A stretch of 64,000 bases of DNA from an uncultured Chlorobiaceae bacterium (GTDB lineage Bacteria; Bacteroidota; Chlorobiia; Chlorobiales; Chlorobiaceae), in the NCBI GenBank assembly GCA_903939765.1, contig CAJAIK010000047.1, positions 1 through 64,000 of the forward strand, written 5' to 3'. Shown one piece after another: positions 12,516 to 54,687 of the stretch (positions are counted from its first letter, which is position 1; every line of letters starts with the position of its first letter). Position numbers and translations under genes: made by a program. The notes beneath the pieces were generated by a model. It searched no databases, was not told the DNA's origin, and worked only from the letters and a program-made list of their open reading frames with translations.

Positions 12516-12525
12516 ATGTAAACTA

Positions 12526-13545: not shown

Positions 13546-13558
13546 GATACAAGGTATT

Positions 13559-18454: not shown

Positions 18455-18500
18455 AAACACCCTTATTTGGTTTCATTAATACAATAATAATTCATTGGAG

Positions 18501-19565: not shown

Positions 19566-19569
19566 ATTT

Positions 19570-39136: not shown

Positions 39137-40540
39137 TCAGGCGATAAAACGTGTTGCTGGCAATGCCGTTGCTGCAACCTGTTGAATTTCTGTGGTTTCT
39201 GAATTATCATCAATTGAAAGGCTGTTATTGAGCGCCATTCCTGTCAGAGCGCCACTGAAAAGGGTATAAATCGGATTGATCATGGCATTGAGCAGGTTGT
39301 CGATCATCGAGAGAGCAAGAAAGATGGCCATGACAGCGGGCCCGGCAAGTGCTATTTTGTTCCACTCTCCAGGTTTGAAGCGTAACATGAAGAGAATGGC
39401 TGGCAGTTGAATACTGAAAACCAGCAACATTAAACCGTAGATGCCGTTCTGCCCAAGGGTGATGATCCACAAGCCGTCGGCAACTGTGAGATCCTTTCCT
39501 TTATCATTAAAAACTCTTGAACGACCAAACCCACCCCATCCGAAAAAGGTACCCTCCATTGCCTTGACAATCAGAACGGTTTCATTGTCGAAGCGGAACT
39601 GTAACGACTGAGCCCGGGTTGGACTGAATTTTTCAGCCACAAAATCGGAAAGGTTCCGCCCATCCCAAATGCCAGTAACTCTTGTGTAGATATAGAGGTA
39701 AGGGGGAATCAAGAGTATCACCAGGAGAACGATTTTTTTTAATTTGAATGAAAAATAGAGAACCATAACGCCAATAATAAGCAGAACAATAGCCCCCTGC
39801 GACTGCATCATGATGAAGGTGAATACAAGCATGAGCAGGACGTAATCCGCGCGTACAGAAAAAATTTTTTTTTGTAAACACTTGCAATAATATAGCCAAC
39901 TTCCAAGAAAAATAGCAAGCATCATCCACATTGAGGTCATAAGACCGTGATCCATGTAGACCATTGGCCTGAATCCTCCTCCATCCCGGAGAGTCTGAAG
40001 GAAATTATGCTGGTGAAAACCATAGGTCATGCGGTGCAGTTGAGGGCTTATGATCATCTCAACCCAGCAGAAGGGGATATAGATGACTCCTCCAAGCACA
40101 ATAGTGGTTGCGAGGATTTTCAATGCTTCAGGCTCAGCAAAATAAATGCGTCCGATATAGTAGGGCAATCCCCATTGTATAGTCTGGTAGAGGGTTTGTG
40201 ACAAGCCGTCATAGGGTCCGAGATCGTTAAAGATCGAGGAAAAAAAAGGAGCCGTGCACCACAGTAACATTGGAATATCGAACACACCAAACTTGAAATT
40301 TGATGTTCTCTCCTTGTCGAAAAAATTGACACTTAAAAGAATACCGATGGCAATTACGGTTGTTTTTGTATGGTGAAGGAGGAAGATATTGTATTCGGCA
40401 ACTGGCAGAAACATCCACCCGGCAACATAGGCTGTTGCGGCAGCCTGACGGTGTTCCAGCTTTTTAAAGAGGAACATGACGACGGCTGGAAACCCGAACA
40501 GGGTAACCGGAACCAGAATATTTCCAGGGGCACCACCCAT
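39137..40540 (-). CDS. O-antigen ligase/polymerase-like membrane protein
   Basis: A 467-residue polytopic protein with about 12 helices. A large loop after residue 300 (RFDNETVLIVKAMEGTFFGW, then GGFGRSRVFNDKG and VADGLWIITLGQNGIYG) is the periplasmic loop of the Wzy/WaaL (O-antigen ligase) superfamily. It is the best candidate for the polymerase of this locus. ATG 40540 lies 13 bases after the acetyltransferase stop; the frame remains open to 40645 inside that gene, which is not credible. No separate Wzy candidate is seen in the cluster. Confidence 0.82.
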   Translation of the reverse strand: MGGAPGNILVPVTLFGFPAVVMFLFKKLEHRQAAATAYVAGWMFLPVAEYNIFLLHHTKTTVIAIGILLSVNFFDKERTSNFKFGVFDIPMLLWCTAPFFSSIFNDLGPYDGLSQTLYQTIQWGLPYYIGRIYFAEPEALKILATTIVLGGVIYIPFCWVEMIISPQLHRMTYGFHQHNFLQTLRDGGGFRPMVYMDHGLMTSMWMMLAIFLGSWLYYCKCLQKKIFSVRADYVLLMLVFTFIMMQSQGAIVLLIIGVMVLYFSFKLKKIVLLVILLIPPYLYIYTRVTGIWDGRNLSDFVAEKFSPTRAQSLQFRFDNETVLIVKAMEGTFFGWGGFGRSRVFNDKGKDLTVADGLWIITLGQNGIYGLMLLVFSIQLPAILFMLRFKPGEWNKIALAGPAVMAIFLALSMIDNLLNAMINPIYTLFSGALTGMALNNSLSIDDNSETTEIQQVAATALPATRFIA

Positions 40541-40553
40541 AGTGTACTTGTAA

Positions 40554-41045
40554 TTAACGAATTTTTGCGGGTATGCCGACGGCAGTGGCTCCGCCTGGCA
40601 CATCATGAAGAACGACGGCATTTGCTCCAATCCGGGCATGAGCACCTATACGGATGTTGCCGATTATTTTTGCACCTGCACCGATATCAACATGCCCTTC
40701 TATGACCGGAAGCCCTGGCTTCAGACCGGCCCCGATCGTGACCTGCTGAAAAATAAGACAGTTGGGACCGATTTCCGCTTCAGGGTGAATGACGATACCG
40801 TTTGGATGGGGCATCATCAACCCACCGCCGATTTTTGAGTTGAGAGGTATATCCGCCCCACTGACGGCACTCCAGAAGCGGTGGAGCAGTACAAAAAATG
40901 GGGAGAGCATTTTTGCTCCGGGATCAGTTTTCAGCTTGAGCCGCTGATAGTTACGAATGGCCGAAAGCAGATATTTTGCGGGTTCATAACCTCCGGGAAC
41001 TTTTTTTTCCCTTTCCCAGTCCGGTTCTGTCGCTGAGATTATCAT
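40554..41045 (-). CDS. Serine acetyltransferase-like left-handed beta-helix protein
   Basis: A 163-residue hexapeptide-repeat acetyltransferase of the CysE/EpsC-like group. The helical N-terminus leads to the repeats ALS-free region MLSPFFVLLHRFWSAVSGAD, then GGGLMMPHPNGIVIHPEAEI, with further hexapeptides (IGPNCLIFQQVTIGAG, IGNIRIGAHARIGANAVV) and the end PAKIR. The acetyl-CoA-dependent His is in MPHPNG. It overlaps the Wzc-like gene by 4 bases. It probably acetylates a sugar in the repeat unit and not serine. Confidence 0.82.
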   Translation of the reverse strand: MIISATEPDWEREKKVPGGYEPAKYLLSAIRNYQRLKLKTDPGAKMLSPFFVLLHRFWSAVSGADIPLNSKIGGGLMMPHPNGIVIHPEAEIGPNCLIFQQVTIGAGLKPGLPVIEGHVDIGAGAKIIGNIRIGAHARIGANAVVLHDVPGGATAVGIPAKIR

Positions 41046-43306
41046 CTTTTATTGATTTTTTTTGATTTCCGGAAATTTCTGAATGGTTTTGAAATGTTAT
41101 CAATCAGTTCAAGGGTAGATGGTGAATTTTTAATAAACTCTTTCAACGTTTTAGGAAAAATTTTGTGAAGAATCGCGGGCGGATTATCAAACAATTCGTC
41201 GAGTGACAATGTCTGTTTATTGCCACCAAAGTTCAGTATCGGTGCAATTGCAGGAACGTCCAGCCGGACAAGCAGTTCTGCGGCATTTCTCAGATCGTTG
41301 AATTTGGAACTCTCTCCCAGACAAATCAGTGCAATGATATCTGAAGAGATCGCAAAGTGTTCGGTAAGGTTACTCTTGAGTACTGGCAAGGCATCAATAC
41401 AGACAAAGTCATACTCTTTTTTTGCCTCCTGAAGAAGCTCCCTTACCCGCTGCAAGGGAATAAGGGTTTTTGTGGCATTTCCTGCATAGAGGATATCGAT
41501 ATTATCTCCCGGCGTGGAGATAACATATTCTTTCCACGTGTTACTGCTGTTGAGAAAGTCGCGAAGTCCGGGTAGATTTGGAAAAAAATCTTCAAATTGT
41601 TCAACATCAGCAGATACGATGTCGCCATCGATCCAGAGCACTTTCGGTGCAACTTTCGCAAGTGCTTTGGCGCAACTGAATGCAATAGAGGATGATCCAA
41701 CCCCCTGTTCGAGACCGGTAAAGAGGAGTATCCGACTGTTGTCTTTATCCTTTTCACGGAAAAGCTTGGCACAGAGGGTTCCAATTGCCTGAACCTGAAA
41801 TTCATCTGTTCCAAGGTTCAGCTCCTGAGCATCGCCTTTCTGTTTTTTTACTTTGACAATTGTTTGCGTGGGGAGGCAGCCAAGAGCCTGCTTTATATCT
41901 TCTGGCCGGCGAATGGTGTTGTCGAGAAATTCATAGACAACAAAAGGACCACAGACAACGCAGAAAGCAATTCCCAAAAGCATCATCAGCAGTTTGTTGG
42001 TGTTTGAGCTCACGGGAAATTTAGGTTCTCTTGCCAGTGACTCAATGCTGATTCGTAATGGGGCTTTTCGTTCAATTTCGATTTCAGCGCTTCTGCGCTC
42101 AAGCATGTCGAGCAGATCCTGATTATGTTTCCAGGAGGCCGTGAGATATTCGCCTTTATGAATTCCTATGGAGATTCTTTGCGACTCTTTGATGTTTTTT
42201 TCAAGTTCTGTTTTAAGAGCTTCAACTGTTTTTGTTGATTTTTCAAAATCATATTTGGCCTGTATCAAGGACTTTTGCATGTCGAGCTTTCGCTTCCCAA
42301 GAGTGATACCATTTGCGGTATTTCGAAGCTCCTTTCGCTGTTTCTTTTCGTATTGCTGCATGGCGTTCATGCGTTTTTCAACGTAGATACGGTCAGGATT
42401 AGCTTCTGTAAGCCCGTCGGTTGTGCTTCTCATCTCCTGAAGCTGCTGGTAGGTCCAGGAGCTTGTAAAGTGAAGAGATTGATCGTTCATTACTATTTCA
42501 TCAACCAGAGGGTCTAATGACAGAGATTGTAATTCATGAGTTGCTTTTTCAACTGCCCAATAATTATTCATCGCCTTCAGGTTATCCGTAAACGAATTAT
42601 CATACTGCCGCTGAAGTTCCTCGGTATTTTTTGATGCCATGTTAAATGACTCTGAGTACGATGCCATAGAAATCTCTTTGGTCAGCTCATTAAGACTTTT
42701 TTCATAGGCATTCATTTGATTCTGTATCAATTCTTTTTTTATACTCAGAGAATTCAATTGTTCCTGATCAGACTCTGCACTGCTGTTGCGGACTTTATCA
42801 AGGTAGACACTCATCAGTTTATTGACAAGAGGAGCAAGTCCCTCGGGTTTGCTGCCTGAAGCAACGATCTCAATCAGGTGAGTTCCCGGAAGTGGCTTGA
42901 TAATGATAACATGATCAAGAATTTCTGCGCATTTGTCTGACGGAAGGCCGAGGGGAAGTAAAGAAGCTTTTTCGCGAGGAGTCAGTTTTTCTACAGTTTT
43001 TTGGAGAATCTCAAAAGTCTTCATCGAGTGTGCCTGTGTATTGGCATATTGGTCGTAATAGTTGGTAATTGAGGTCTCTGCTTTTTGTGTGATCAATGTG
43101 GCTATAACCGGGTCTATTTTCATGAATGCATGAACTTCATAAAATGGCTTCTTTATCACAAAAACAATTGGAGTTGTAATGGTAAAAAAGAATGAGCCAA
43201 AAACCAGCATGTAGATGCCATAGCGTTTTATAAACCCGAAAACGTCAAAAGATTTTGAGGGCTTTCCAAAAGGAAGAGCTTCTCTGAGAGCATTTGCCTT
43301 GAGCAT
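41042..43306 (-). CDS. Wzc/GumC-like chain-length protein with a non-canonical P-loop
   Basis: A 754-residue protein with an N-terminal Wzz domain between two membrane helices (near residues 30-55 and 440-465), long coiled coils between them, and a cytoplasmic CpsD-like ATPase domain. The Walker A region reads GLEQGVGSSSIAF: the essential Lys of GxxGxGK(S/T) is replaced by Ser (codon TCA at 41693-41695). Walker A' VLWIDGDIV and a Walker B-like FVCIDALPV remain, and there is no Tyr-rich tail. It is probably a structural chain-length regulator without kinase activity. It overlaps the acetyltransferase gene by 4 bases. Confidence 0.9.
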   Translation of the reverse strand: MLKANALREALPFGKPSKSFDVFGFIKRYGIYMLVFGSFFFTITTPIVFVIKKPFYEVHAFMKIDPVIATLITQKAETSITNYYDQYANTQAHSMKTFEILQKTVEKLTPREKASLLPLGLPSDKCAEILDHVIIIKPLPGTHLIEIVASGSKPEGLAPLVNKLMSVYLDKVRNSSAESDQEQLNSLSIKKELIQNQMNAYEKSLNELTKEISMASYSESFNMASKNTEELQRQYDNSFTDNLKAMNNYWAVEKATHELQSLSLDPLVDEIVMNDQSLHFTSSWTYQQLQEMRSTTDGLTEANPDRIYVEKRMNAMQQYEKKQRKELRNTANGITLGKRKLDMQKSLIQAKYDFEKSTKTVEALKTELEKNIKESQRISIGIHKGEYLTASWKHNQDLLDMLERRSAEIEIERKAPLRISIESLAREPKFPVSSNTNKLLMMLLGIAFCVVCGPFVVYEFLDNTIRRPEDIKQALGCLPTQTIVKVKKQKGDAQELNLGTDEFQVQAIGTLCAKLFREKDKDNSRILLFTGLEQGVGSSSIAFSCAKALAKVAPKVLWIDGDIVSADVEQFEDFFPNLPGLRDFLNSSNTWKEYVISTPGDNIDILYAGNATKTLIPLQRVRELLQEAKKEYDFVCIDALPVLKSNLTEHFAISSDIIALICLGESSKFNDLRNAAELLVRLDVPAIAPILNFGGNKQTLSLDELFDNPPAILHKIFPKTLKEFIKNSPSTLELIDNISKPFRNFRKSKKINKR

Positions 43307-43466
43307 AGTCAGCCCTTTTTCAGTTTAAAGTGTGCAATTATTACCGCATCACTTCCGGATTTTATGATACTAACCGTCGTGATAGAGGTTGGACTTGCAG
43401 TATGCGTGATGACAAGTGAATGAACAAGGTTCACCATATGTATGTATTATCTTATAAAGAAAGTTG

Positions 43467-44384
43467 TCAGCGATGTGAAATTCTTTTGATAAGTGATTTG
43501 ATTTGTTTTTTAAAATCTGCCGGAATTATTGATTTCAAGAGATTCAAAGGCATCAGATCCGAGTATATAGCGTGTTTGTATCTTGTCATCTTTAAATATT
43601 TCCAATAAAGATATTTATAGGGATGGGTATTTGTTGAATGCCATGGTTTTGAACCGCTGGTGTAGTGAATTATTACTGGCCTATTTCTTGCCTCTTCTAA
43701 CTCTGCTTTGTCGAAGCAATCAAATTTTTCATCAAATGAAGGGCTGAATATTGACGATTGCTGGTTATACTTCAAAGGAACTTTTTTCCATTGGCCATTG
43801 ATAATCGCATTTAAGCCGCATTGATCAGGGAACCAGATTGATTGTGGATTTTTTTCAATAAAATCAATAACTTTTTTTTGTAGCCCTGATTTTTTCCAGA
43901 GTGCTAAATTAATCAGCATCATTCCGGAGTTGAAATATTTGGAAGTTATATTCATTTCTAATTGAACGTGTCGGTCAAAACCCGGATCTTCAATTGCGCA
44001 GACATAATAATCACCCAACTCCTGTTCATACAATTCTTTTATTGAGCCATTGACAATAATGTCGCAGTCGAGATAGAGTATCTTTTCCGTATTAATAAGT
44101 TCCGGAATCAGCAAGCGATAATATGTCCCTTTTGGATAATAGGGATGGGTGACGGCTAACGTAGCAAAAAGTTCATCTGAAATAATGATATGTTTTACTC
44201 GGCAGTTATATTTGTCAGTAATTTCTTTTATGTTTCGATAGCTTTTTTTTGACATACCACTGCTGATAATATAGATATCAATGGAAAGATCCTTATTGTT
44301 TTCCAATAATGATACCAATGCAGCACACAAGTGCTGGATATAGTTCCTGTCCGTAGCAAAGACGATGTTAATAATGTCGTTCAT
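43467..44384 (-). CDS. Glycosyltransferase family 8
   Basis: A 305-residue GT8 (LgtC/galactosyltransferase-like). INIVFATDRNYIQHLCAALV opens the nucleotide-sugar site; the DxD metal motif is in KILYLDCDIIVNG, and IWFPDQCGLNAII plus VIIHYTSGSKPWH complete the family pattern. It overlaps the upstream GT4 gene by 4 bases and is followed by a 160-base gap before the Wzc-like gene. The gene is more A/T-rich than most of the cluster. Confidence 0.92.
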   Translation of the reverse strand: MNDIINIVFATDRNYIQHLCAALVSLLENNKDLSIDIYIISSGMSKKSYRNIKEITDKYNCRVKHIIISDELFATLAVTHPYYPKGTYYRLLIPELINTEKILYLDCDIIVNGSIKELYEQELGDYYVCAIEDPGFDRHVQLEMNITSKYFNSGMMLINLALWKKSGLQKKVIDFIEKNPQSIWFPDQCGLNAIINGQWKKVPLKYNQQSSIFSPSFDEKFDCFDKAELEEARNRPVIIHYTSGSKPWHSTNTHPYKYLYWKYLKMTRYKHAIYSDLMPLNLLKSIIPADFKKQIKSLIKRISHR

Positions 44385-45577
44385 GTGACTGGGTGGTTTT
44401 CAGTGTGTTCAAGCGTTGACAAGAGGTGATCAACTCTTTTATCAAATGTTGTTTCAAAATCGTGCAGTCGTGAAAACAAAATACTTGCCCTGGACTTCTC
44501 CGAAATATCAGTTCTGTTTTTGTTGAGATTGATGATTATGTTTTTAATCTCATTGAGATCGTTTAATTTTGATCCCCATCCAATATCAGCCAACTCCAAC
44601 AACCCGGCAAAAGCCTTGTTTTTATACCCCACAATAGGCAAACCGCACGACAAGGTTTCCAGATAGGTGCAGGATGGGTCGCTTTGCCGGTGAAGAGAGA
44701 CAAATAAATCAACTTTTTGTTTGAGATCAGGGATAAGTTCGGTATAAAAATCTACTGCACCTGGCATGGATACGTAATTTTCAAGCTTATGCTCCCGAAT
44801 ACTTCTTTTCATCTCATTTTCCAGTTCCCCCGTGCCATATATGGTCATGAGAAAAGGAAAAGCCTCTTTTTTCAACATGCGGGCAAGAGTTATCAAGTGA
44901 TCCGCACCTTTCATCTGAATCAGGCGACCGGAAAAAGCGAGACGGAGCGGGTTGCCCTGAGAGAGGTAATCCAATCTTTTTTCAAGATCGGTATCGCTGA
45001 TACTGTGTTGGTTGTCAACGCGTGTATCGAAGTATAACAGGTTATTTTTAAATCTCTTGTATTCGTAATAAGCCGGTGTTCCATTCGACTGAAGAGCGTC
45101 CGCAAGTTGAAATGCGGCAACTCTTTTTTTTTCATGAAGCCAGATGTAAAGAAATCTGCGCAGCTTGACCAAAGGGTTTCTGGAGCTTAAAGAGGCTATT
45201 TGATATCGGGTTTCAGGTATGTACTCAATGACATAAACACATTTAATTTTTTCTTTTCTGCATAGCCCGCTTATGTGCAGTTGATTGTGCGAATCGCCTG
45301 AGGCAAGGACAAGGGAGACTCCCTTCAGATGTTTTGTATTGACTGTATCACCTTGTTCCATGGTGATGCAGCTAAAGGGGAGTTCCTTGGCTGTTTTTTT
45401 TATAGCACCAAATTCAGGGAGTTGAGAGTTCGTGGTCTCCATAAGGCAACTCACTTTTCCTGGCCACTTTTGGCCGTACAGAGCCATGCCATCGTAAAAT
45501 TTACGGTCAAAAATGAGGCTATCGCCCTGCTGCCATACAGGAACTGACGGGATAATAAGTAAATGCGGCTCTTTCAA
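44381..45577 (-). CDS. Glycosyltransferase family 4-like (group 1)
   Basis: A 398-residue GT-B protein. The C-terminal half has PLRLAFSGRLIQMKGADHLI, TIYGTGELENEM and VDLFVSLHRQSDPSCTYLET, the donor-binding pattern of group 1 transferases. The N-terminal half is more divergent. It overlaps the GT8 gene by 4 bases, implying paired action, and follows the Wza-like gene by 77 bases. Specificity unknown. Confidence 0.87.
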   Translation of the reverse strand: MKEPHLLIIPSVPVWQQGDSLIFDRKFYDGMALYGQKWPGKVSCLMETTNSQLPEFGAIKKTAKELPFSCITMEQGDTVNTKHLKGVSLVLASGDSHNQLHISGLCRKEKIKCVYVIEYIPETRYQIASLSSRNPLVKLRRFLYIWLHEKKRVAAFQLADALQSNGTPAYYEYKRFKNNLLYFDTRVDNQHSISDTDLEKRLDYLSQGNPLRLAFSGRLIQMKGADHLITLARMLKKEAFPFLMTIYGTGELENEMKRSIREHKLENYVSMPGAVDFYTELIPDLKQKVDLFVSLHRQSDPSCTYLETLSCGLPIVGYKNKAFAGLLELADIGWGSKLNDLNEIKNIIINLNKNRTDISEKSRASILFSRLHDFETTFDKRVDHLLSTLEHTENHPVT

Positions 45578-45654: not shown

Positions 45655-46782
45655 TTACTTCGCTGTGCCTGTTGTGGTCGTGCTGCTGCCGTTGACAAAT
45701 CCGGTTTGATTCCATAGCTTCTTACGCAATTCCTGCATGATTCCGAGTGTTTCAGCATCGGACGTGCCGAGGTTGAAAATCTGTAATGCAGGAGTCATTT
45801 TTTCAAGAGTATAATTGAATTTTGCCATGCCCGTCGCGCTTATATAGATAATGTCGTCAGGCAGCAGAGCAAAGTTTTGACTGAAATCCCCCTGTTCAAT
45901 CAATTTCTTGAGATCAACCTTGATGACGTCCCCCTTGGCATTTTGTTGCCTTATCAAGAAAATTTTTTCGGCATTTGCGTTTTTGTTGATTCCTCCTGCA
46001 AACATAATTGCCTTGAGGATAGTCATACCATCTTTCAACTGAATCGCACCTGGATTGAGCACTTCACCCATGACATAAATCACTTCATCATTAAGTTCAG
46101 GAATAAAAATAACGTCGTTGTTCAGTATCGGTGCATTGAGAGCCATGTTGCCGTTTTTGAGCAAGTCCTGCAAGTCAATCCAGATCACGCTCTCTTTACC
46201 CCGGATGATGGCGCATCTGGTGAGTTTTCCCTGATCGGGAAGTCCCCCGGCGAGAGCGAGCCCTTCAAGAAGCGTTCCTTTCCCCGGAAAATTAATGACG
46301 CCCGGTTTCGCGACACGTCCAAGAACAAATGCCTTGTTGTTGTGAAACTCCCGTAGCCAGACGGTTACCTCCGGCTCAATGTAGAGGGGAGTCAGTTTTT
46401 CGGTTACAAGTTTTTTTACCTCTTCCTGTGTGCAGTTTAAAACATTAATACTGCCTATTCTTGGAACTGCAATTAAGCCGTCAGGCGAGACAACAATATT
46501 TTCTTGCGACAGTTCGGGCCTGCGCCATACCTTGATGTTGACCAGGTCACCCGGCCCGAGACGATACTCATAGCGGCCAAGGGGAGTTATTTTCTCGATT
46601 TGCTCCACGGAGGCAAATTTTTGCTCTTTTTTTGGTTGAGTGGTAATAAAGTCTCTTTCTGGAGGGGAGGGGACACGAGTGGTCTTTGGCGAGAGACCAC
46701 TGCATGCCACCAAAAGCAATGGAATTGCCGTACACAGGAGTGCAATATGAAAAAATGATAAAAAGAGAGATTTATTCTTCAT
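45655..46782 (-). CDS. Polysaccharide export lipoprotein (Wza-like)
   Basis: A 375-residue outer-membrane export protein. The signal peptide (LFLSFFHIALLCTAIPLLLV) ends in the lipobox VACSG. The PES domain follows (YRLGPGDLVNIKVWRRPELS, then VVSPDGLIAVPRIGSINV), with two SLBB-type units (AFVLGRVAKPGVINFPGKGT and VIYVMGEVLNPGAIQLKDGM). It should form the export channel with the Wzc-like protein. 57 bases separate it from the upstream acetyltransferase gene. Confidence 0.93.
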   Translation of the reverse strand: MKNKSLFLSFFHIALLCTAIPLLLVACSGLSPKTTRVPSPPERDFITTQPKKEQKFASVEQIEKITPLGRYEYRLGPGDLVNIKVWRRPELSQENIVVSPDGLIAVPRIGSINVLNCTQEEVKKLVTEKLTPLYIEPEVTVWLREFHNNKAFVLGRVAKPGVINFPGKGTLLEGLALAGGLPDQGKLTRCAIIRGKESVIWIDLQDLLKNGNMALNAPILNNDVIFIPELNDEVIYVMGEVLNPGAIQLKDGMTILKAIMFAGGINKNANAEKIFLIRQQNAKGDVIKVDLKKLIEQGDFSQNFALLPDDIIYISATGMAKFNYTLEKMTPALQIFNLGTSDAETLGIMQELRKKLWNQTGFVNGSSTTTTGTAK

Positions 46783-46839: not shown

Positions 46840-47352
46840 CTATCCTTCTTTTTTAAGAATGATTTTTGCAGGAACTCCTACGGCAATAGCGTTATTTGGT
46901 ACCGCTGAAATGACGACAGCATTTGCCCCGATATCGACATTATTACCGATGGTGATGTTCCCCAAAATTTTTGCCCCAGCCCCGATATTGACATTGTTAC
47001 CAATACGGGGAGCCGCCTTCTCTTCAATATTTTTCAGGCCTATGGTTACACCGTTTCTCAGAATACAGTTATCACCGAAGCTTGCATATCCGCTGACGAT
47101 GATATCACCAAAATGATCAATGCGGAAATTTGCTCCAACCGGTACTTCGCAGGGAAGTTCAATGCCGGTTACTATCTGGATGAGCTTGTAAAGCAGCCTG
47201 TAGAGCAGGGAAAACGGTTTGCGTATTATGCTGTTTTTTATGGTATAGCGCCACCGTCCGAAACGGTAGACCAGCATCACCCAGAATCCCTGGCTGCTCC
47301 ATGCGCCATCATAGGTTGCAAGATCGGCCTGTATATTGTTGAACAGTTTCAT
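46840..47352 (-). CDS. Serine acetyltransferase-like protein (CysE/EpsC type)
   Basis: A 170-residue hexapeptide-repeat protein. The helical N-terminus has the polysaccharide-locus signature QADLATYDGAWSSQGFWVML with YRFGRWRY; the beta-helix includes GANFRIDHFGDIIVSGYAS, FGDNCILRNGVTIGL and repeats of IGNNV type, ending VPAKIILKK. The acetyl-CoA His is in RIDHFG. It is 8 bases downstream of the GT2 gene. It is the second such acetyltransferase in the cluster. Confidence 0.87.
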   Translation of the reverse strand: MKLFNNIQADLATYDGAWSSQGFWVMLVYRFGRWRYTIKNSIIRKPFSLLYRLLYKLIQIVTGIELPCEVPVGANFRIDHFGDIIVSGYASFGDNCILRNGVTIGLKNIEEKAAPRIGNNVNIGAGAKILGNITIGNNVDIGANAVVISAVPNNAIAVGVPAKIILKKEG

Positions 47353-47360
47353 AGGCAGCG

Positions 47361-48368
47361 TTACCAGGGAGATGGCGGTGAAAAAGTTCCAAATTTTGTT
47401 TCTTTCAATGATTGCACGATCTGCATGATCACTGAAACTGCGGCTGATCGTTTTTTTTCAGCATTACCGAACGGCAAAATCAAGTTTTTCGTGTAGCGGG
47501 CAGCGTGCCAAAGCAGCTCAACCCCAGCGGTTGAGAGTACGGCTATAATCCCTTTGTTTTTAAAGTAATAAAGCCATTCGCTTCGCATTCTGAAGGTCAG
47601 TACCTGTGCAGCTTTATTGTCAAATGTTTTGTCTTTTCTTGTCTTGCTGCAGGCACCACCAATGTGCATGACTTCCGCATCATGGATAAAATAGACTTTC
47701 CATCCTGCCTTTTTTGCCCTGAGACAGAGATCAGTCTCTTCGTAATAGATATAAAACCGTTCATCAAAGGCTCCTATGGCATCAATCATCTCTTTGCGAA
47801 TAATGGTGAATGTGCCTGGTACCCAGTCGACCTCCAGAGGATGATCATGCGCGAAGCCACCGAACTCATGACGATTGAGAAGTGGTGAGTGAGGAAATTT
47901 TCCACTCAACCCCGAGAGGGTAAGGAGTTTTGAAAGTGCTGAAGGGAATCGTCTGGCGCTTGGCTCAAGCCGTCCTTCGGGTGAGATGATTTTTCCGCCC
48001 GCAAGGCCGCATTTTGGAGTCCGTTCCATGAATGCCAGGCAGTTTTCGATTGAGGCAGGTCTGATATAGGCGTCAGGGTTGAGAAGAATGATGTAGCGGC
48101 CCGATGCCAGCGCAAAGGCCTGATTATTTGCCGCTGCAAAGCCGAGATTTTGGTTGTTGGCAATCAGGCGGATAGAGGGGAAATCGCGCTGCACCATGGC
48201 AGCAGAGTCATCGGCGGAGTTGTTGTCGACGACAAAGACCTCCATATCAACACCTTTACTGTTCTCAAAAAGTGCCTCAAGAGCATTGCGGAGAATCTCC
48301 CTTGTGTTATAACTGACAATGATAACCGATACCATTGAATTATCTGGGGTTATTGGTTTATGTGTCAT
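47361..48368 (-). CDS. Glycosyltransferase family 2 (rhamnosyltransferase-like)
   Basis: A 335-residue GT2. VSVIIVSYNTREILRNALEA, VFVVDNNSADDSAAMVQRDF, LLNPDAYIRP (the metal-binding DxD-like region) and VDWVPGTFTIIRKEMID, then YYEETDLCLRAKKAGW, are the classic order for bacterial rhamnosyltransferase-like GT2s. A short C-terminal hydrophobic stretch follows. Its start overlaps the end of the HATPase gene by 11 bases. Confidence 0.92.
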   Translation of the reverse strand: MTHKPITPDNSMVSVIIVSYNTREILRNALEALFENSKGVDMEVFVVDNNSADDSAAMVQRDFPSIRLIANNQNLGFAAANNQAFALASGRYIILLNPDAYIRPASIENCLAFMERTPKCGLAGGKIISPEGRLEPSARRFPSALSKLLTLSGLSGKFPHSPLLNRHEFGGFAHDHPLEVDWVPGTFTIIRKEMIDAIGAFDERFYIYYEETDLCLRAKKAGWKVYFIHDAEVMHIGGACSKTRKDKTFDNKAAQVLTFRMRSEWLYYFKNKGIIAVLSTAGVELLWHAARYTKNLILPFGNAEKKRSAAVSVIMQIVQSLKETKFGTFSPPSPW

Positions 48369-48795
48369 GCGTCATCGTTGCCTGCTTTGTCATTGTCAGT
48401 ATGTTGGTGTCATCTTCTCTTGTGTAGGACACCGTGTCCATAAGTCGATGAATCAAAAAAAGTCCATACCCTCCTTCGGGATAGCTGCTGATGTCCGGCG
48501 CCTGTGTCACAGGATTAAATTGTGAATTAGTATCAATGATACTGACAGCCAGAGAGTTGTTGTCGGAACTGAAGCGTATCGTCACCTGTTTTTCCGGTTG
48601 CGCAGGTTTCGCATAGCGTACCGAGTTTGTAAAGGCTTCACTGACAGAAAGTTCATAAGCGTGACAAAATTCTGCAATGTCCGTAGAATTACAGGTGAAA
48701 TCAGCGAAAATTTCGGCAACATTACAGGCTATAATTGAGGCAACACGCACATAACGAAGGTTCGCCTGCAATGTCAGGGTGATTATCGGGTTCAT
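48358..48795 (-). CDS. RsbW-like HATPase anti-sigma/switch kinase
   Basis: A 145-residue GHKL ATPase of the RsbW/SpoIIAB type. The N box is in YELSVSEAFTNSVRYA; the G1 box is altered (IIDTNSQF instead of DxGxG); the G2-like GGYGLFLIHRLMD is intact. Such kinases phosphorylate a STAS protein on serine and are opposed by a PP2C phosphatase. Both partner types are encoded within the next 6 kb upstream. It lies 36 bases after the STAS gene stop at 48832 and overlaps the GT2 gene by 11 bases. Confidence 0.85.
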   Translation of the reverse strand: MNPIITLTLQANLRYVRVASIIACNVAEIFADFTCNSTDIAEFCHAYELSVSEAFTNSVRYAKPAQPEKQVTIRFSSDNNSLAVSIIDTNSQFNPVTQAPDISSYPEGGYGLFLIHRLMDTVSYTREDDTNILTMTKQATMTHDT

Positions 48796-48831
48796 AAGTA
48801 AGACGATTTACGTTTTCGTTTGCCCCTTTAT

Positions 48832-49155
48832 TCAAGCTTCTGCTGCGGCCGATACATCATCGTAAATATCAAATAATGTATATGCCTGTGTGATTTCAAA
48901 TACTTTTTTTACTCGTTCATTCATTCTTGCCAGTTTCATAACAGCACTGCCTGTCTTTTTTTTCCTGGCGATTCCTACCAGTGCTCCGAGGCCGCTACTG
49001 TCAAGAAACTCAACATTTTCCAGGTCAATTACAAGAGATTGCTCATCCGGCATACCTGCAATATACGTTTTCAGCTTAGGCGCAGACGAGGCATTGAGAA
49101 TGCCCTGCAGAGAGACAATGGCATAGTTGTTGATGGTCTTTTCACTGATATTCAT
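48832..49155 (-). CDS. STAS-domain anti-anti-sigma-type protein (first copy)
   Basis: A 107-residue STAS protein: MNISEKTINNYAIVSLQG, then LVIDLENVEFLDSSGLGALV. The second Ser of the DSSGLG loop is the usual phosphorylation site, and it is conserved. ATG 49167 would add four residues and starts one base after the stop of the preceding gene, so translational coupling is possible. It probably is the substrate of the adjacent HATPase. Confidence 0.87.
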   Translation of the reverse strand: MNISEKTINNYAIVSLQGILNASSAPKLKTYIAGMPDEQSLVIDLENVEFLDSSGLGALVGIARKKKTGSAVMKLARMNERVKKVFEITQAYTLFDIYDDVSAAAEA

Positions 49156-49168
49156 GCGTAAATACATG

Positions 49169-50548
49169 TTAATGAGTTCTGTGGAAAAGGGCTTTTTGCG
49201 TCATAGCAATATCCTTCAGGGGATCGCTGTGAACAGCATAATAATGTTCGACGATTTCTGTATCAATGCCAATTTCAGGCCACTCTTCAGCCTCTGCATA
49301 GCTGAAGACCGCTGGTCGGTAGCCTGCAGGGCTGTTCGGAAGAAGCGGAATGGCAGGGTTGAGTGGTCGTGGCTGATTGCCGATAAGGGCAAGCTTGCCA
49401 CTGAGTACTTTGAAGAGCAGGGTAAAGCGATCAAGAGAGAGTGCTTTGGCAAATGCGCTGAGCGCACCCGTGCACTCAATGGTTGTACTCGTCAGCGTAA
49501 CATATTTTCCTTGCCGTTCAGCGTAGTATTGCTCTTTTTTTCTTTTCCATTTACCTTGCATACCCAATATCGGGCGGAGCAAAAGCCAGGGAAAAAGCTG
49601 CAGAAGAATCAGAAAAGTGGCTCCAAGGGTGTGTACCAAACGCCGAAGCAGTGCGCCTGCCACTTTTGACTTTGTCATAGTGGTCAAAAGGTGAGGGTCT
49701 TCCATGACAATGACGGTACCGCTTTCAGGATCAATAAGGAGGTTGCCTGCCGCTATCTTGTTTTTAACCTCAAGATGTTCACCGATATACGTGTTGCCGA
49801 TGACTATACTGCCTGAAATGACACTTTCCCTGTCGATAATGACGTTGCTCCCGATGACGCTGTTTCTGTCTATAATCGCATTGGTCATGATCTGCACATT
49901 ATTGCCAATAATGACCGGCTTTATTATTTCTGCGCTTTTTGGGATGATGACATTCCTGCCGATATAGCAGTCCTCTTCGCTGCTGTAGCCTGGTATGACA
50001 TAGTGGGTTAATCCTGTGCGGAGGATTTCCATGGATAGCTCATAATACTTGCCGATTGAGTCAAGAGCGGCAAGTGAAAATGGTAACGTTCCGGGAGCCT
50101 CTGTTTTTGTTGTTGAGGTACCTGCAAGGCTGATGCTGCCGTGCGGGCAACCGAGAAGCTCTCCGGTGGGGAGTGAAGCAAAAAGTGATGCGTACTCTCT
50201 CTTTTTGTTGTAGCGGATAAAGAGGAAGCCGCTGATGATGATGACCCGTCCGTCCAGACAGAAACGCCGGTTTTTGTCAATGACGGTAGAGATATCGTCT
50301 CCAGGACGCATGCTCCCATAGCTTATTTCAACGCCCCATCGGCTTCCGTTTTCGCAGTAATGCTCCACATCTCCAAGCACTCCGTCGCTTACTATTCGCA
50401 GGGCATCGCTGCCTGCAAGGATCGCAAAGTCTACAAGGAATTCGATAAAAGGCTTGTTGCATATCGGAACAAGCAAAGGATGAACGCCGGGAAACAGATC
50501 GATAAGCCACTCATACTCCTGCTTTTTGATGACAAGAAGTGTTTTCAT
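49169..50548 (-). CDS. Nucleotidyltransferase-like / beta-helix / degenerate sugar transferase fusion
   Basis: A 459-residue fusion. Residues 1-170 resemble a sugar nucleotidyltransferase (HPLLVPICNKPFIEFLVDFA) but the catalytic GGxGTRL loop is missing; residues about 195-265 form hexapeptide repeats (VIIGNNVQIMTNAIIDRNSV); residues 300-459 contain a membrane segment (LGATFLILLQLFPWLLL) and a sugar-transferase-like end (SLDRFTLLFKVLSGKLALIG, then NQPRPLN) that lacks the DELPQ and KFRSM catalytic motifs. It is probably a non-catalytic or regulatory scaffold. The lone N-terminal Met gives a normal operon spacing of 11 bases after the second STAS gene. Confidence 0.72.
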   Translation of the reverse strand: MKTLLVIKKQEYEWLIDLFPGVHPLLVPICNKPFIEFLVDFAILAGSDALRIVSDGVLGDVEHYCENGSRWGVEISYGSMRPGDDISTVIDKNRRFCLDGRVIIISGFLFIRYNKKREYASLFASLPTGELLGCPHGSISLAGTSTTKTEAPGTLPFSLAALDSIGKYYELSMEILRTGLTHYVIPGYSSEEDCYIGRNVIIPKSAEIIKPVIIGNNVQIMTNAIIDRNSVIGSNVIIDRESVISGSIVIGNTYIGEHLEVKNKIAAGNLLIDPESGTVIVMEDPHLLTTMTKSKVAGALLRRLVHTLGATFLILLQLFPWLLLRPILGMQGKWKRKKEQYYAERQGKYVTLTSTTIECTGALSAFAKALSLDRFTLLFKVLSGKLALIGNQPRPLNPAIPLLPNSPAGYRPAVFSYAEAEEWPEIGIDTEIVEHYYAVHSDPLKDIAMTQKALFHRTH

Positions 50549-50559
50549 GGAGCTTTTTG

Positions 50560-50913
50560 TTATTTCGGACTAACCGTCCTGAATGATTGTATAGCCTCAG
50601 AGCTGCTTGAAAAAACCGAAAAGAGTTGTTTTGCCTTTGTGAGCTCAAAAACCATGGCGACTTTCGGGCTGAGAGCTGCAAGTTTCACGTCACCATGATG
50701 TTCAAGCGCTTTGCGCAGACAGGAGACAATCGCCCCGAGCCCCGAGCTATCGATAAAGTCAAGCTCTGTGCAGTCAAAAACAAAATTGCTTGCCTGCAGT
50801 AACCATTGAGCGAAAGCCTTTTGCAGCTCGTTGCTGTTACTGGCATCAACTCTTTTTTTTAGAAGTACAACACCGAGAGGTTGGGTTGTTGATGTGTCGA
50901 GATGAAAAATCAT
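50560..50913 (-). CDS. STAS-domain anti-anti-sigma-type protein (second copy)
   Basis: A 117-residue STAS protein with FVFDCTELDFIDSSGLGAIV; the phosphorylatable Ser is present. Its N-terminus (LDTSTTQPLGVVLLKKRVDA) differs clearly from the other STAS copy 1.4 kb away, so the two are not recent duplicates. Spacing to the neighbours is 11 and 14 bases. It may answer to the same HATPase and phosphatase, or to a different output. Confidence 0.87.
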   Translation of the reverse strand: MIFHLDTSTTQPLGVVLLKKRVDASNSNELQKAFAQWLLQASNFVFDCTELDFIDSSGLGAIVSCLRKALEHHGDVKLAALSPKVAMVFELTKAKQLFSVFSSSSEAIQSFRTVSPK

Positions 50914-50927
50914 TGCGTTCTCCAGTG

Positions 50928-51647
50928 TTAATAAGCACCCTTTCCGGTCAGGACGGCAGGGATGGTTTTCAGAAGCAGAAGAATATCATTAAGAAAACTT
51001 GCACTTTGGATGTACTGCATATCAAGCTTGACCTGATCAGTAAATGGAATGTCGCTTCTTCCGCTGACCTGCCACAAACAGGTGATTCCAGGGATGACGT
51101 GCAGCCGCTTGCGTTGCTCAAGGGTATACTTTGCAACTTCTCCCGGCAAGGGAGGTCTTGGTCCGACAAGGCTCATATCGCCAATCAGAACGTTGAGGAG
51201 TTGTGGCAGCTCATCAATACTGAACTTACGGATGATTTTTCCTACCCTCGTAATTCTCGGATCTTTTTTCATTTTGAAAATCACGCCGGCAGCAGATTCA
51301 TTCCGATCGGCCAACTCCTGTTTGAATTTTTCGGCATTGACAACCATTGAACGGAATTTATAAAACCTGAAATGCCTGCCGTTCTGGCCAACACGTATCT
51401 GAGCATAAAAGATCGATCCAGGGTCTTCCATCCAGATGGCACAGGCAGTAACACACAGAAGAGGGAGCAAAACAACCAGCGCGGCTACTGAGACGCTGAT
51501 ATCAAGCACTCTTTTCAGTATGTAGGAAAATCTGATGGTTGATTCCCATGCGGCAACTTTCATGGCTCGCCGGTAACGTACCTTTGGGTTGAGTGAGCCA
51601 CTGATTTGTCGAATCAGTTCCTTTCTTACGGTCGGATCGAGATCCAT
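50928..51647 (-). CDS. Initiating sugar transferase (undecaprenyl-phosphate phosphoglycosyltransferase)
   Basis: A 239-residue small phosphoglycosyltransferase that starts repeat-unit assembly by moving a sugar-phosphate to undecaprenyl phosphate. After one membrane-inserted helix (RVLDISVSVAALVVLLPLLC) come the catalytic motifs FRFYKFRSMVVNAEKF, RKFSIDELPQLLNVL, GDMSLVGPRPPLP and PGITCLWQVSGRS, all intact. The N-terminal 40 residues are soluble, and no five-helix WbaP-type membrane domain is present. It is the only PGT in the cluster with full catalytic motifs. Confidence 0.93.
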   Translation of the reverse strand: MDLDPTVRKELIRQISGSLNPKVRYRRAMKVAAWESTIRFSYILKRVLDISVSVAALVVLLPLLCVTACAIWMEDPGSIFYAQIRVGQNGRHFRFYKFRSMVVNAEKFKQELADRNESAAGVIFKMKKDPRITRVGKIIRKFSIDELPQLLNVLIGDMSLVGPRPPLPGEVAKYTLEQRKRLHVIPGITCLWQVSGRSDIPFTDQVKLDMQYIQSASFLNDILLLLKTIPAVLTGKGAY

Positions 51648-51652
51648 GAAAT

Positions 51653-52996
51653 TTAACGGCTATTGCTTTGAGTAAACATTTTCCATTTTATGACACGATA
51701 GAGAAAAAGGGGATTGCCGACTACATATCTTCGCCACATGCGCCCCGGTTCCTGAAGCATCCTGTAGACCCATTCAAAACCGATTTCCCTGATCCAGTCA
51801 GGTGCACGTCTGGTGGTTCCTGAATAGAAGTCGAAAAGTCCGCCAACTCCCATGAGCACATCAGGCTTGAGTTTATGGCGGTGCATGCTGATCCATTTCT
51901 CCTGCAGTGGCGCTCCAAATCCAACAAGAAGAATTGCTGCACCGGAGTTGTTGATTTTCTCGATAACCCCATCACTTTCAGTTTGGTGATCGAAATAACC
52001 ATGTGCGGTTCCTGCAAGGGCTACGCCATACGCAGCCTTGATATTTTCTCCGGCCTTCTCGGCGATTCCTGGTTTTCCTCCAAGGAGAAAGATGGAATAA
52101 CCATTTGATGTCGCCATTCTGCAAATATATGGAAGCATATCTGTTCCATTGATATTTTCCTTGAGCGGTGTCTGAAGCATTTTTCCGGCAATAACAAGTC
52201 CTATACCGTCGGGGAAGATATAATCGCCTGTTTTAAGAATGTTAAAATACTTCTGGTCGGAAATCATTTTATTCAGGCAGTCCGGATTTGCAAAAAAAAT
52301 GGAGCACTGTTTTTTTTGCTTAAGATTTGCTCCGATAAGAGCAACGGCCTCAACCATTGTAAGGTTTTTCAGGTCGAGATCCAGCAACTGAAACACCGAA
52401 GACGACGTCACGCATCTTTCACTGTAAAACATGGCTGGAAGCGCACGTAACAGAAGCATGAAATCATAAAATGGACGCTTCTTGAAGATATACTCCCATT
52501 CAATCAGCATTCGTCCTTCGTGAGCAATTTTGCTGGAGCTCCGAATATCCCACAGCGAGATCACCCCAGGCCTCACTGCATTAATATACCCTTTTTGAGG
52601 AGTTGGACTGCTATCGCCCCACTCTTTTATTGCAGTTCCAACAAGAGCAAGTTGTCCGGTAAGAACTTCAAAAAAGAGGGGCAGGTCACGATAGGGCGAC
52701 GCGACAATGTTGAAGCGAAGAACCCTTAGTGGCTTGGCGAGTGCCCCGAAAATGGTTCTTGATGTAAAGAGTGGTCTTCCCGTAAAGAGTTTCCGAAACA
52801 AAAGGATAAGAAGAAATGGAAAAGTAATGGCAAGCGTCACGATAAGTGCCACCGATATCTCAATGATTCTTGCAAGTGCCTCTGCTGTTGCGGCACTGAG
52901 TTTGAACATACTGCGCGTCAGGAGGCTTCTCAGCCCCGATGAACGTCCAGAGAGCCTTTCTTCCAAACCAGTGATGAATTCTTTGCCTTGATTCAC
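51653..52996 (-). CDS. Degenerate sugar transferase fused to a WecG/TagA/CpsF glycosyltransferase
   Basis: A 447-residue fusion. Residues 1-200 look like a sugar transferase: a membrane helix (ISVALIVTLAITFPFLLILL), LRFNIVASPYRDLPLFFEVL, then GQLALVGTA and the PGVISLWDIR equivalent of the PGITGLWQV motif, but KFRSM and DELPQ are lost. Residues about 210-447 are a GT26 domain (FFANPDCLNKM, DYIFPDGIGLVIAGK, IFLLGGKPG, LLVGFGAPLQEKW, GVGGLFDFYSG). It overlaps the upstream regulator gene by 4 bases and precedes the active transferase by 5 bases. Confidence 0.88.
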   Translation of the reverse strand: MNQGKEFITGLEERLSGRSSGLRSLLTRSMFKLSAATAEALARIIEISVALIVTLAITFPFLLILLFRKLFTGRPLFTSRTIFGALAKPLRVLRFNIVASPYRDLPLFFEVLTGQLALVGTAIKEWGDSSPTPQKGYINAVRPGVISLWDIRSSSKIAHEGRMLIEWEYIFKKRPFYDFMLLLRALPAMFYSERCVTSSSVFQLLDLDLKNLTMVEAVALIGANLKQKKQCSIFFANPDCLNKMISDQKYFNILKTGDYIFPDGIGLVIAGKMLQTPLKENINGTDMLPYICRMATSNGYSIFLLGGKPGIAEKAGENIKAAYGVALAGTAHGYFDHQTESDGVIEKINNSGAAILLVGFGAPLQEKWISMHRHKLKPDVLMGVGGLFDFYSGTTRRAPDWIREIGFEWVYRMLQEPGRMWRRYVVGNPLFLYRVIKWKMFTQSNSR

Positions 52997-54687
52997 GGCA
53001 CGATATCCTCTTCGTTGATTGTTTCTTTGTTGCCAGGACGTTTCACGACGATAGTTTCCGGGGAGCCTATACGGATAACGATGCAGGTTGCATCATCATC
53101 GAAGCTCTTGCGACCGGTAGATTCATAAACATATTCGCTGATTTTCTTGATCAATGCATCAGGCTGGAGCTTTTGATGTTTTACAATGAAATCGCGAAGT
53201 CGTTCTGTTCCGAACATGGTATTGTCAGGCAAAAGGCATTCGGTAATCCCATCGGAATACATCACGACAATGTCATTCTCTTTGAGCGGAAAGCAAATGG
53301 TATGGTATTCCTGCTTTTCAATCATACCGACAGGCAGGTTTTCTCCCTTCAGCAGCGTGCAGACTCCCTCATCGGCATGAAAATGAATGGTAGGGGTATG
53401 GCCGCAGTCAATGAGTGAAAATTCTCTTTTTTCCAGATCGAGACGTATAAATAACAGTGTCGCATAAATGCCGATATCAAGAAGTTCAAGAATGCATTGC
53501 TCATGTAACTGAGTGGCAATGCCCTGCAGTTCAGGCAGTTCATCGGCCTGGTGTTTTTTTTGTGCAACTGTTTTCAGAAAAAGTGACTTTAATCCAGCGC
53601 CGACCAGAGCTGACAGAATACCATGCCCCATAACATCGCCAATAAAAATATCAGCATGCTTGTTATCATAAAGAATAAACTCAGTAAAGTCACCGTTAAG
53701 ATGACCTGAGGAGACGGTAAACTGGCTCATTGACGCGCCATTCAGAGAACTGGGGATCGCACTTTGTAACAGCTTTTGTTCAATTTGCGTTTCCAGTTCC
53801 TGCTGCATATTTTCGTAACGTTCCCGGCTTTCTTCTTCTTCAATCCGTGTCGAAATATCCCGCGCAATAATAACGGTGTGGTGAAGTCCGTCAAAGGTGA
53901 GTGCCCCTGTTGTTACCTCAAGAGGTATGGAACTGCCATCTTTTTTTATGCCATCGATTCGTCGCACATGACCATCTTTCGTTGATGCAAGTTTGTCGGC
54001 AGGGTTATTGCAACCATCATAAAGAGAGCATGCCTCAGCCTGAGGCAAAATAATGTCGAGAAAATTTTTCGCGTGGAACGCCTCCTCGGTTATGCCGAAA
54101 AGGGTTTCAGCGGCGATGTTTACATAAACAATGAATCCCTGGTCATTCAGCAGAAAAATGGGATCAAGCGCGGCATCGTTCATTGAACGAAACTGCGTTT
54201 CGCTCTGACGCAATTCTGCGGAGATAACGCGAAGTGCTTCATTTGCCGTTAACAAGTCCTGATTTTTTTTTGCAAGCTGGTTGAACAGTATTTCCCGTTC
54301 ATTTTTCAGCCGGTAATAGTCAATGGTATCCGTTATGATTTTTTTAAATCCATGAGGTTCGATCGGCTTTGGAATAAAGCGGAAAACTTCTCCTGTATTG
54401 ATGGACTCGATAATCTGGTCGATATCATGAATACCACTGAGAATAATGCGAACAATATTCGGATGGCTTGTTTTTACCTGGCTGATCAGTTCCATTCCCG
54501 ACATTTCAGGCATGCGCAGGTCGGTTAACAGAATTGCGACATTGCAGGTTTGAAGCAGTTCAAGCGCCTGTTTGCCGCTTGTTGCAAAGTACTTTGTATA
54601 GGGCTCCTTGCGTAAAAAACGGCTTAATGAATCAAGCGTGTCTTGTTCATCATCAACAAAAAGGAGGGCAATGTCAGAGTCGTTCAT
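52993..54687 (-). CDS. Receiver-PAS-PP2C (SpoIIE-type) phosphatase, head of the polysaccharide operon
   Basis: A 564-residue signalling protein. Residues 1-125 are a receiver domain (VDDEQD, phospho-acceptor Asp56 in LLTDLRMPEMSG); a helical linker leads to a PAS domain near 165-285 (LNDQGFIVYVNIAAETLFGI); a second coiled coil leads to a SpoIIE/RsbU phosphatase domain (NGDFTEFILYDNKHADIFIG, then DVMGHG, LIDCGHTP, VVMYSDGITE and SFDDDATCIVIRI). Metal-binding Asps are present. It probably dephosphorylates one or both STAS proteins. It is the first gene of the minus-strand cluster; no cognate histidine kinase is adjacent. Confidence 0.92.
   Translation of the reverse strand: MNDSDIALLFVDDEQDTLDSLSRFLRKEPYTKYFATSGKQALELLQTCNVAILLTDLRMPEMSGMELISQVKTSHPNIVRIILSGIHDIDQIIESINTGEVFRFIPKPIEPHGFKKIITDTIDYYRLKNEREILFNQLAKKNQDLLTANEALRVISAELRQSETQFRSMNDAALDPIFLLNDQGFIVYVNIAAETLFGITEEAFHAKNFLDIILPQAEACSLYDGCNNPADKLASTKDGHVRRIDGIKKDGSSIPLEVTTGALTFDGLHHTVIIARDISTRIEEEESRERYENMQQELETQIEQKLLQSAIPSSLNGASMSQFTVSSGHLNGDFTEFILYDNKHADIFIGDVMGHGILSALVGAGLKSLFLKTVAQKKHQADELPELQGIATQLHEQCILELLDIGIYATLLFIRLDLEKREFSLIDCGHTPTIHFHADEGVCTLLKGENLPVGMIEKQEYHTICFPLKENDIVVMYSDGITECLLPDNTMFGTERLRDFIVKHQKLQPDALIKKISEYVYESTGRKSFDDDATCIVIRIGSPETIVVKRPGNKETINEEDIVP

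Follow-up and report, generated by a model that had tools for sequence, protein, structure and literature searches.

What does a complete partner switch control when it is encoded in the middle of a polysaccharide operon and no sigma factor gene accompanies it? The question is raised by a locus of an uncultured Chlorobiaceae bacterium, which lies in a stretch of 64,000 nucleotides (the window; contig C47) of a 2.98-Mb genome with a completeness of 99.4%. On the minus strand, from position 54687 to 48358, a serine phosphatase of the PP2C type, two STAS proteins (STAS-A and STAS-B) and a stand-alone HATPase are interspersed with an initiating phosphoglycosyl transferase (PGT) and two fusion proteins that contain degenerate PGT domains (dPGT). 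One of the fusions, designated LbH-dPGT, connects a nucleotidyltransferase (NTase)-like domain and a left-handed beta-helix (LbH) with a dPGT. We consider it moderately probable that these genes constitute a sigma-less partner switch, which would directly and post-translationally control the initiation of polysaccharide chains via this pseudo-PGT.

The organization of the locus is presented in Table 1. The order of the rows corresponds to the gene order from the PP2C via the dPGT-WecG fusion, PGT, STAS-A, LbH-dPGT, STAS-B, HATPase and GT2 to the acetyltransferase and the Wza-like exporter. Neighbouring genes are separated by gaps of 1-36 nt or overlap by 4-11 nt, a spacing typical of an operon. 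The assignment is based on the list of open reading frames and, for the switch and PGT genes, on Pfam matches above the cut-off. It confirms the complete partner-switching set within a polysaccharide operon that a preliminary description of the window had postulated, with every named gene at its proposed position. Comparison with the orthologues suggests that the true start of STAS-B is at 49155, which would result in a protein of 107 aa.

Table 1. Genes of the polysaccharide operon and its partner switch, with window coordinates.
Feature	Position	Strand	Evidence and remarks
Receiver-PAS-PP2C (SpoIIE/RsbU-type) serine phosphatase, 564 aa; switch input	52993..54687	-	Pfam Response_reg, PAS, SpoIIE 135.6 bits
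Fusion of a degenerate PGT (Bac_transf, without the dyad) with an intact WecG/TagA glycosyltransferase, 447 aa	51653..52996	-	Bac_transf 39.7, Glyco_tran_WecG 212.9 bits
Intact small monotopic PGT (initiating sugar-1-phosphate transferase), 239 aa	50928..51647	-	Bac_transf 220.9 bits
STAS-A, 117 aa, D-S-S-G-L-G	50560..50913	-	Pfam STAS 64.7 bits
LbH-dPGT pseudoenzyme, 459 aa: NTase-like domain, left-handed beta-helix, membrane helix, degenerate PGT	49169..50548	-	Pfam hexapeptide; weak NTP_transferase, Bac_transf
STAS-B (RsbV-like), D-S-S-G-L-G	48832..49167	-	Pfam STAS 57.3 bits
Stand-alone HATPase (RsbW-like serine kinase), 145 aa	48358..48795	-	Pfam HATPase_c_2 89.8 bits
GT2 glycosyltransferase, next operon gene; annotated start overlaps the HATPase end	47361..48368	-	Pfam; follows the HATPase in nearly all loci
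Serine-acetyltransferase-like hexapeptide acetyltransferase	46840..47352	-	Pfam; conserved order in relatives
Wza-like outer-membrane polysaccharide export protein (Poly_export, SLBB)	45655..46782	-	Pfam
Remainder of the operon: GT4-like, GT8-like, Wzc-like tyrosine kinase, acetyltransferase, Wzy-like polymerase	39137..45577	-	Named by eye, without Pfam; homologues in relatives

A full-length LbH-dPGT is encoded in 38 of 86 Chlorobiaceae genomes, and our comparison comprises the 37 corresponding loci that were retrieved in addition to the window. The cultured strains Chlorobaculum thiosulfatiphilum DSM 249, Chlorobium phaeovibrioides BrKhr17 and Chlorobium sp. N1 also carry the locus. The preliminary description had named conservation in other green sulfur bacteria as the point to be checked, and the order PP2C-WecG-PGT-STAS-A-LbH-dPGT-STAS-B-HATPase-GT2 was indeed recovered in these 37 other genomes, with protein identities ranging from 42 to 98%. 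None of the 37 loci lacks PGT, STAS-A, LbH-dPGT or HATPase, and STAS-A is always located between PGT and LbH-dPGT. STAS-B precedes the HATPase in 36 of them; locus L059 has lost its operon copy and harbors a STAS-B upstream of the operon. Since the arrangement is conserved in 37 other genomes, its gene order is not a product of chance. The association of STAS-A is particularly strict, because in a survey of 98 genomes of the class its orthologues (>108 bits) were detected in exactly the 38 genomes with LbH-dPGT and in none of the 60 others, the next match scoring 60 bits. The PP2C is present in 38 of 38 genomes with LbH-dPGT versus 16 of the 48 other Chlorobiaceae. In at least 17 loci (e.g. 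L050, L052, L060, L062) it is preceded by the gene for a protein of 667-724 aa, a neighbour that is missing in the window; the two of these proteins that were tested are receiver-PAS-PAS-histidine kinases, and such kinases are likely inputs for the receiver of the PP2C.

Full-length orthologues of LbH-dPGT were seen only in Chlorobiaceae (profile search within the phylum of the window; exact peptide patterns otherwise), but related fusions in two forms are found outside the family, both in one other class of the phylum. In G140 and G286, the genes for a PGT, a WecG, a methyltransferase, a GAF-like PP2C, a STAS protein and a degenerate NTase-LbH-PGT fusion are located consecutively. A long NTase-LbH-PGT fusion is present in 18 loci from 18 genomes of this class (search families f10, f33, f39 and f59). 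Its nucleotide loop is intact in most cases, and the dyad motif S-x-D-E-L-P was recognized by pattern match in 15 of the 18 sequences, the remaining three being unmatched by the pattern. All 18 loci harbor a STAS gene (about 112 aa, D-S-[ST]-F) upstream of the fusion, with a HATPase in between in nine and a receiver-PP2C directly downstream in six of them. Because the loci outside Chlorobiaceae were selected by similarity of the fusion alone, the STAS neighbour is not an effect of the selection. Among 30 loci of the same class with an ordinary PGT, none had a STAS, HATPase or PP2C gene within flanks of equal size, and the same applied to a second control set of 29 loci that encode longer NTase proteins, in which three matches to STAS represent the same fusions found again. 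Since the 37 relatives keep the gene order and the STAS gene accompanies every fusion but no ordinary PGT locus of the other class, the tie of the switch to the initiating transferase is, by this measure, old and specific. The same two observations support the direct switch on glycan synthesis that the preliminary description had considered possible, and make it likely.

The two STAS proteins differ in their genetic affiliation. In G051, the same chromosomal site, identified by its flanking genes, contains only PP2C, STAS-B and HATPase (75, 79 and 74% identity); PGT, STAS-A, LbH-dPGT and the glycosyltransferases are absent from the site, and a STAS-A orthologue is missing genome-wide. A PP2C-STAS-B-HATPase block that is 72-90% identical to that of the window is located apart from or upstream of the operon in G056, G067 and G081, and the STAS-B and HATPase of the operons themselves show only 56-70% identity to those of the window in these genomes. 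As judged from these identities, the three genes of the block have moved together. Co-variation was assessed for 30 sequences (window and 29 loci) as partial correlation after removal of the background co-divergence. The HATPase co-varies most strongly with STAS-B (partial r 0.58), followed by LbH-dPGT (0.46), and STAS-B is also the best partner of the PP2C (0.35). LbH-dPGT co-varies with STAS-B (0.47) and, as mentioned, the HATPase, and the values for STAS-A are low throughout (HATPase 0.28, LbH-dPGT 0.16, PP2C 0.15). The trio of G051, the moved blocks and the pattern of co-variation separate the putative roles of STAS-B and STAS-A: PP2C, STAS-B and HATPase are a separable linkage group, and STAS-A is genetically bound to the intact PGT and the LbH-dPGT pseudoenzyme. 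In a phylogenetic tree STAS-A and STAS-B are sister clades (support 0.989) with the STAS proteins of the other class outside, a topology that is contingent on the midpoint rooting of the tree and on sequences of small length. It would most simply be explained by the duplication of one ancestral STAS gene in the line of Chlorobiaceae, giving rise to a switch-side and an enzyme-side copy.

The three kinds of switch proteins exhibit the signatures of a system of the RsbU/V/W type. The alignment of the PP2C documents conserved metal-site motifs including the metal-binding Asp residues (GDF, GDVMGHG, DCGH, SDG, DD), and the HATPase corresponds to a stand-alone HATPase_c_2 kinase by its Pfam match and the conserved E..N of the N-box, with RsbW as the best solved match (E 1.8e-6). 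As previously described for the window, both STAS proteins contain the phosphorylatable Ser (D-S-S-G-L-G, in agreement with the consensus D-S-[ST]-G). The closest solved relatives of STAS-A are the anti-sigma factor antagonists TM1442 and SpoIIAA. The phosphorylation site is mostly kept among the orthologues: all 38 STAS-A sequences retain the Ser or, in two cases (D-T-S-G), a Thr, and some copies of STAS-B have D-T-S-G, N-S-T-G or D-E-E-G instead. The latter motif is found in extra STAS-B copies at L065 10215-10559 and L073 2266-2610, which look as if permanently phosphorylated.

The component that is missing is the cognate sigma factor. Family searches, on which all genome-wide counts are based, revealed a single region-3 sigma factor (Sigma70_r3), which is RpoD-like and has 299 aa; no SigB/SigF-type (region 3) sigma factor was detected, a search that did not extend to ECF and sigma-54 factors. 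Within this scope, the absence of a sigma factor gene that had been noted for the locus holds for the whole genome. Because the only Sigma70_r3 protein is RpoD-like and none is encoded in the operon, the locus is, according to its gene content, not a member of the class of sigma-controlling partner switches. The PP2C of the operon is also the sole SpoIIE-type PP2C of the genome. Both this and the missing SigB/SigF-type sigma factor render a remote output of that type, which would have contradicted the preliminary description, unlikely. Further STAS proteins are located on other contigs, namely a SulP transporter and a protein of 208 aa, and a second stand-alone HATPase adjoins a glucose-6-phosphate isomerase gene (pgi; named from its sequence).

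The trio could nevertheless represent an ordinary transcriptional switch, in which the HATPase sequesters a regulator (ECF, RpoD-associated or another DNA-binding protein) that drives the operon, and its localization would simply keep the regulator with its regulon. Canonical RsbU/V/W systems target sigma factors, the trio stands alone at its site in G051, and the sigma factor search was confined to region 3. This explanation is at odds with the lack of a SigB/SigF-type sigma factor in a nearly complete genome, and it accounts neither for the presence of STAS genes beside NTase-LbH-PGT fusions but not beside other PGTs, nor for the strict tie of STAS-A to LbH-dPGT. We therefore regard it as unlikely, albeit as the most serious competitor.

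The transferases of the locus are in contrasting catalytic states. The separate PGT, whose nearest solved relatives are WbaP and PglC, has retained the D-X12-P re-entrant helix, the Lys, the Arg, the Asp-Glu dyad and the second Arg in 38 of 38 sequences; the dyad corresponds to the catalytic residues D93-E94 of the monotopic PGT PglC (PMC12802240). In LbH-dPGT it has changed to Asp-Arg, with the Arg in 37 of 38 sequences, the Asp of D-X12-P is lost, and the C-terminal domain, with a Bac_transf score of only 16.9 bits, does not qualify as a PGT. The N-terminal domain lacks the nucleotide loop G-x-G-[ST]-R throughout the Chlorobiaceae family and is hence no canonical nucleotidyltransferase, but it has kept the fold, as documented by the comparison of its AlphaFold model with RmlA (Z 16.0, root-mean-square deviation 3.7, 181 residues). 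eIF2B is also among the structural matches, which cover mainly residues 1-196. The model has a mean predicted local distance difference test score (pLDDT) of 67.8. Its confident part is largely limited to the NTase-like half and the membrane helix, and the score is around or below 50 for most of the last 80 residues, so that no structure is claimed for the degenerate PGT. The ratio of nonsynonymous to synonymous substitutions (dN/dS) ranges from 0.18 to 0.27 for the whole LbH-dPGT and from 0.24 to 0.38 for its degenerate PGT part, compared with 0.07-0.10 for the PGT. Since these values are indicative of purifying selection despite the loss of the dyad, LbH-dPGT is, as far as substitution rates tell, a maintained pseudoenzyme and not a decaying gene.

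The second fusion is less constant. The dyad columns of its PGT domain are mostly A/R and D/T and unconserved, which excludes the domain from the PGTs as well, but its WecG half is not degenerate. The preliminary description of two fusions of degenerate transferase domains is thus correct for both PGT domains and the NTase half of LbH-dPGT, but not for WecG. Many relatives carry WecG alone, and the protein lengths are accordingly about 247 or about 450-620 aa. This variation bears on the earlier suggestion that one HATPase phosphorylates both STAS proteins and thereby serves two outputs, i.e. the two degenerate transferases. The phosphorylatable Ser of both STAS proteins and the combination of a single HATPase with two dPGT fusions would be compatible with it. 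However, both STAS genes persist in the many loci in which the WecG-fused dPGT is absent or WecG stands alone, and the genes that accompany STAS-B are those of HATPase and PP2C rather than a transferase gene. Two outputs, one per STAS protein, are accordingly very unlikely, and the linkage of STAS-B with PP2C and HATPase and of STAS-A with PGT and LbH-dPGT takes their place.

The trio, the gene association of its putative client and the catalytic states can be read directly from the sequences. For binding, phosphorylation, the direction of the effect and the step from the client to the PGT, we infer the following course. A signal perceived by the receiver and PAS domains would switch on the PP2C, which would strip the phosphate from the Ser of STAS-B and probably also from that of STAS-A. 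Unphosphorylated STAS-B would then capture the HATPase kinase and thereby free its other client, an assembly of STAS-A and LbH-dPGT that would occupy the place of the sigma factor. The freed assembly is predicted to bind the PGT at the membrane and to set its activity, and the kinase activity of the HATPase would reverse the state by phosphorylation of the STAS proteins. The sequence is compatible with activation as well as inhibition of the PGT; the analogy to SypA and SiaC (see below) favors the assumption that the dephosphorylated form activates it.

Several observations weigh against a sigma-less control of chain initiation. The G1 box of the HATPase is atypical across nearly the whole family (D-x-N instead of the usual D-x-G). 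The trio of G051 lacks PGT, STAS-A and LbH-dPGT, and would either have another target or be a relic. The co-variation signal is weak, as it is derived from 30 sequences with shared inheritance, and amounts to just 0.16 for the pair of STAS-A and LbH-dPGT. The LbH-dPGT gene of G025 (L077, G025:C1:1544171-1545538) contains one in-frame TGA, and its close relatives are intact. Finally, linked genes may be co-expressed without any contact between their products, and genes that lie side by side do not count as independent cases when they co-occur. The last alternative, that STAS-A and LbH-dPGT belong to an initiation complex as constitutive structural subunits and the trio is an unrelated regulator in the operon, could draw on the weak co-variation of STAS-A with HATPase and PP2C, the separate trio of G051 and the precedent of MlaB, a STAS subunit of MlaFEDB (PMC7367683), but it is highly improbable in view of the phosphorylation site that is kept in all 38 STAS-A sequences and of the other class, in which a single STAS gene lies beside a HATPase or PP2C gene and the fusion in most loci.

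The closest known systems each share some features with the locus. RsbU/RsbV/RsbW and SpoIIE/SpoIIAA/SpoIIAB of Bacillus consist of the same three kinds of proteins with a D-S-S-G phosphorylation site, and RsbW is the solved protein nearest to the HATPase. The system described here differs by the lack of a cognate SigB/SigF-type (region 3) sigma factor, the presence of two STAS proteins, the D-x-N of the G1 box, and its integration into a polysaccharide operon with PGT, WecG and pseudo-PGT. SypA of Vibrio fischeri is a STAS protein of a polysaccharide locus, whose unphosphorylated form promotes biofilm formation via an unknown target (PMC4517449, PMC8256260). As in the window, a STAS protein and its PP2C and kinase belong to a polysaccharide system, but SypE unites kinase and phosphatase in one response regulator, whereas separate genes are found here; a pair of pseudo-PGT and STAS is not described in the consulted passages of the two papers. 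A phospho-controlled STAS or STAS-like partner that acts directly on an enzyme has been reported for HsbA-HsbD, BgrV-BgrR and SiaC-SiaD of the SiaABC-SiaD system (PMC8457831), yet their targets are diguanylate cyclases and not PGTs as proposed here. Direct control of an initiating PGT was reported in 2025 for EpsW-EpsZ of Myxococcus, in which a phosphorylated receiver stimulates the enzyme post-translationally (PMC12802240). EpsW is a single receiver domain and not a STAS protein, EpsZ is a large monotopic PGT, and neither a PP2C/HATPase pair nor a pseudo-PGT is involved; conversely, the receiver of the window is fused to PAS-PP2C, and its PGT is small. HmpU/HmpV/HmpW of Nostoc form a partner switch of unknown target that is encoded in a locus for motility and polysaccharide, and all4160 of Anabaena is described as a glycosyltransferase with N-terminal STAS domain (PMC8256260); they belong to another phylum with other gene neighbours, and are likened here by their description and not by sequence. 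LbH-dPGT resembles subunits of the eIF2B/GlgD type, i.e. NTase-beta-helix proteins with apparent loss of catalysis and a possibly regulatory role, but adds a membrane-bound degenerate PGT domain and an adjacent STAS gene.

Sigma-less partner switches and direct control of PGTs are hence already known, but we did not find a report of the two combined: our search of the literature retrieved no report on the locus in green sulfur bacteria, and none in the open-licence literature in which a PGT or pseudo-PGT is connected with a partner switch. For polysaccharide-locus switches with unknown target, such as SypA and HmpV, the locus indicates a specific class of targets, namely the initiating PGT together with a degenerate relative. 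The comparison with the other class allows for a tentative generalization, which we hold to be conceivable rather than probable: partner switches that bind the initiating PGT may be a widespread control of the committed step of polysaccharide synthesis, and in one lineage the bound NTase-LbH-PGT would have evolved into a pseudoenzyme adaptor, which serves an RsbW-like kinase as client instead of a sigma factor. The other class would provide the simpler version, with one STAS protein, one HATPase and one enzyme with intact motifs, for which a reconstitution is feasible. If true, the proposed control would show how access to the shared undecaprenyl phosphate pool is gated without a change of transcription, and assign a function to a pseudo-PGT.

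PP2C systems of a different composition are present in some Chlorobiaceae (L082, L084 and L085). They form a cluster with a PP2C of about 650-670 aa, periplasmic-binding-like proteins, an ABC ATPase, a STAS protein and a HATPase, and were rejected as relatives of the switch based on their different neighbours, a PP2C identity of 24-25% and the phosphorylation site I-S-S-A-G.

Two further groups of genes lie elsewhere in the window. A TIR-like protein (recognized by eye, without Pfam match), a MoxR-type AAA ATPase (bpMoxR match) and a NACHT protein of 1631 aa, which ends in a C-terminal FGE-sulfatase domain, are encoded consecutively at positions 11169-18454, and this row looks like a conflict or defence system of the MoxR/NACHT kind. 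The next two genes after that for the NACHT protein, at positions 18495-20091, encode an AAA_15/21 ATPase with a match to HEC-02A (337.6 bits) and then a small protein with a match to HEC-02B (89.1 bits), which makes them a candidate HEC-02 anti-phage pair.

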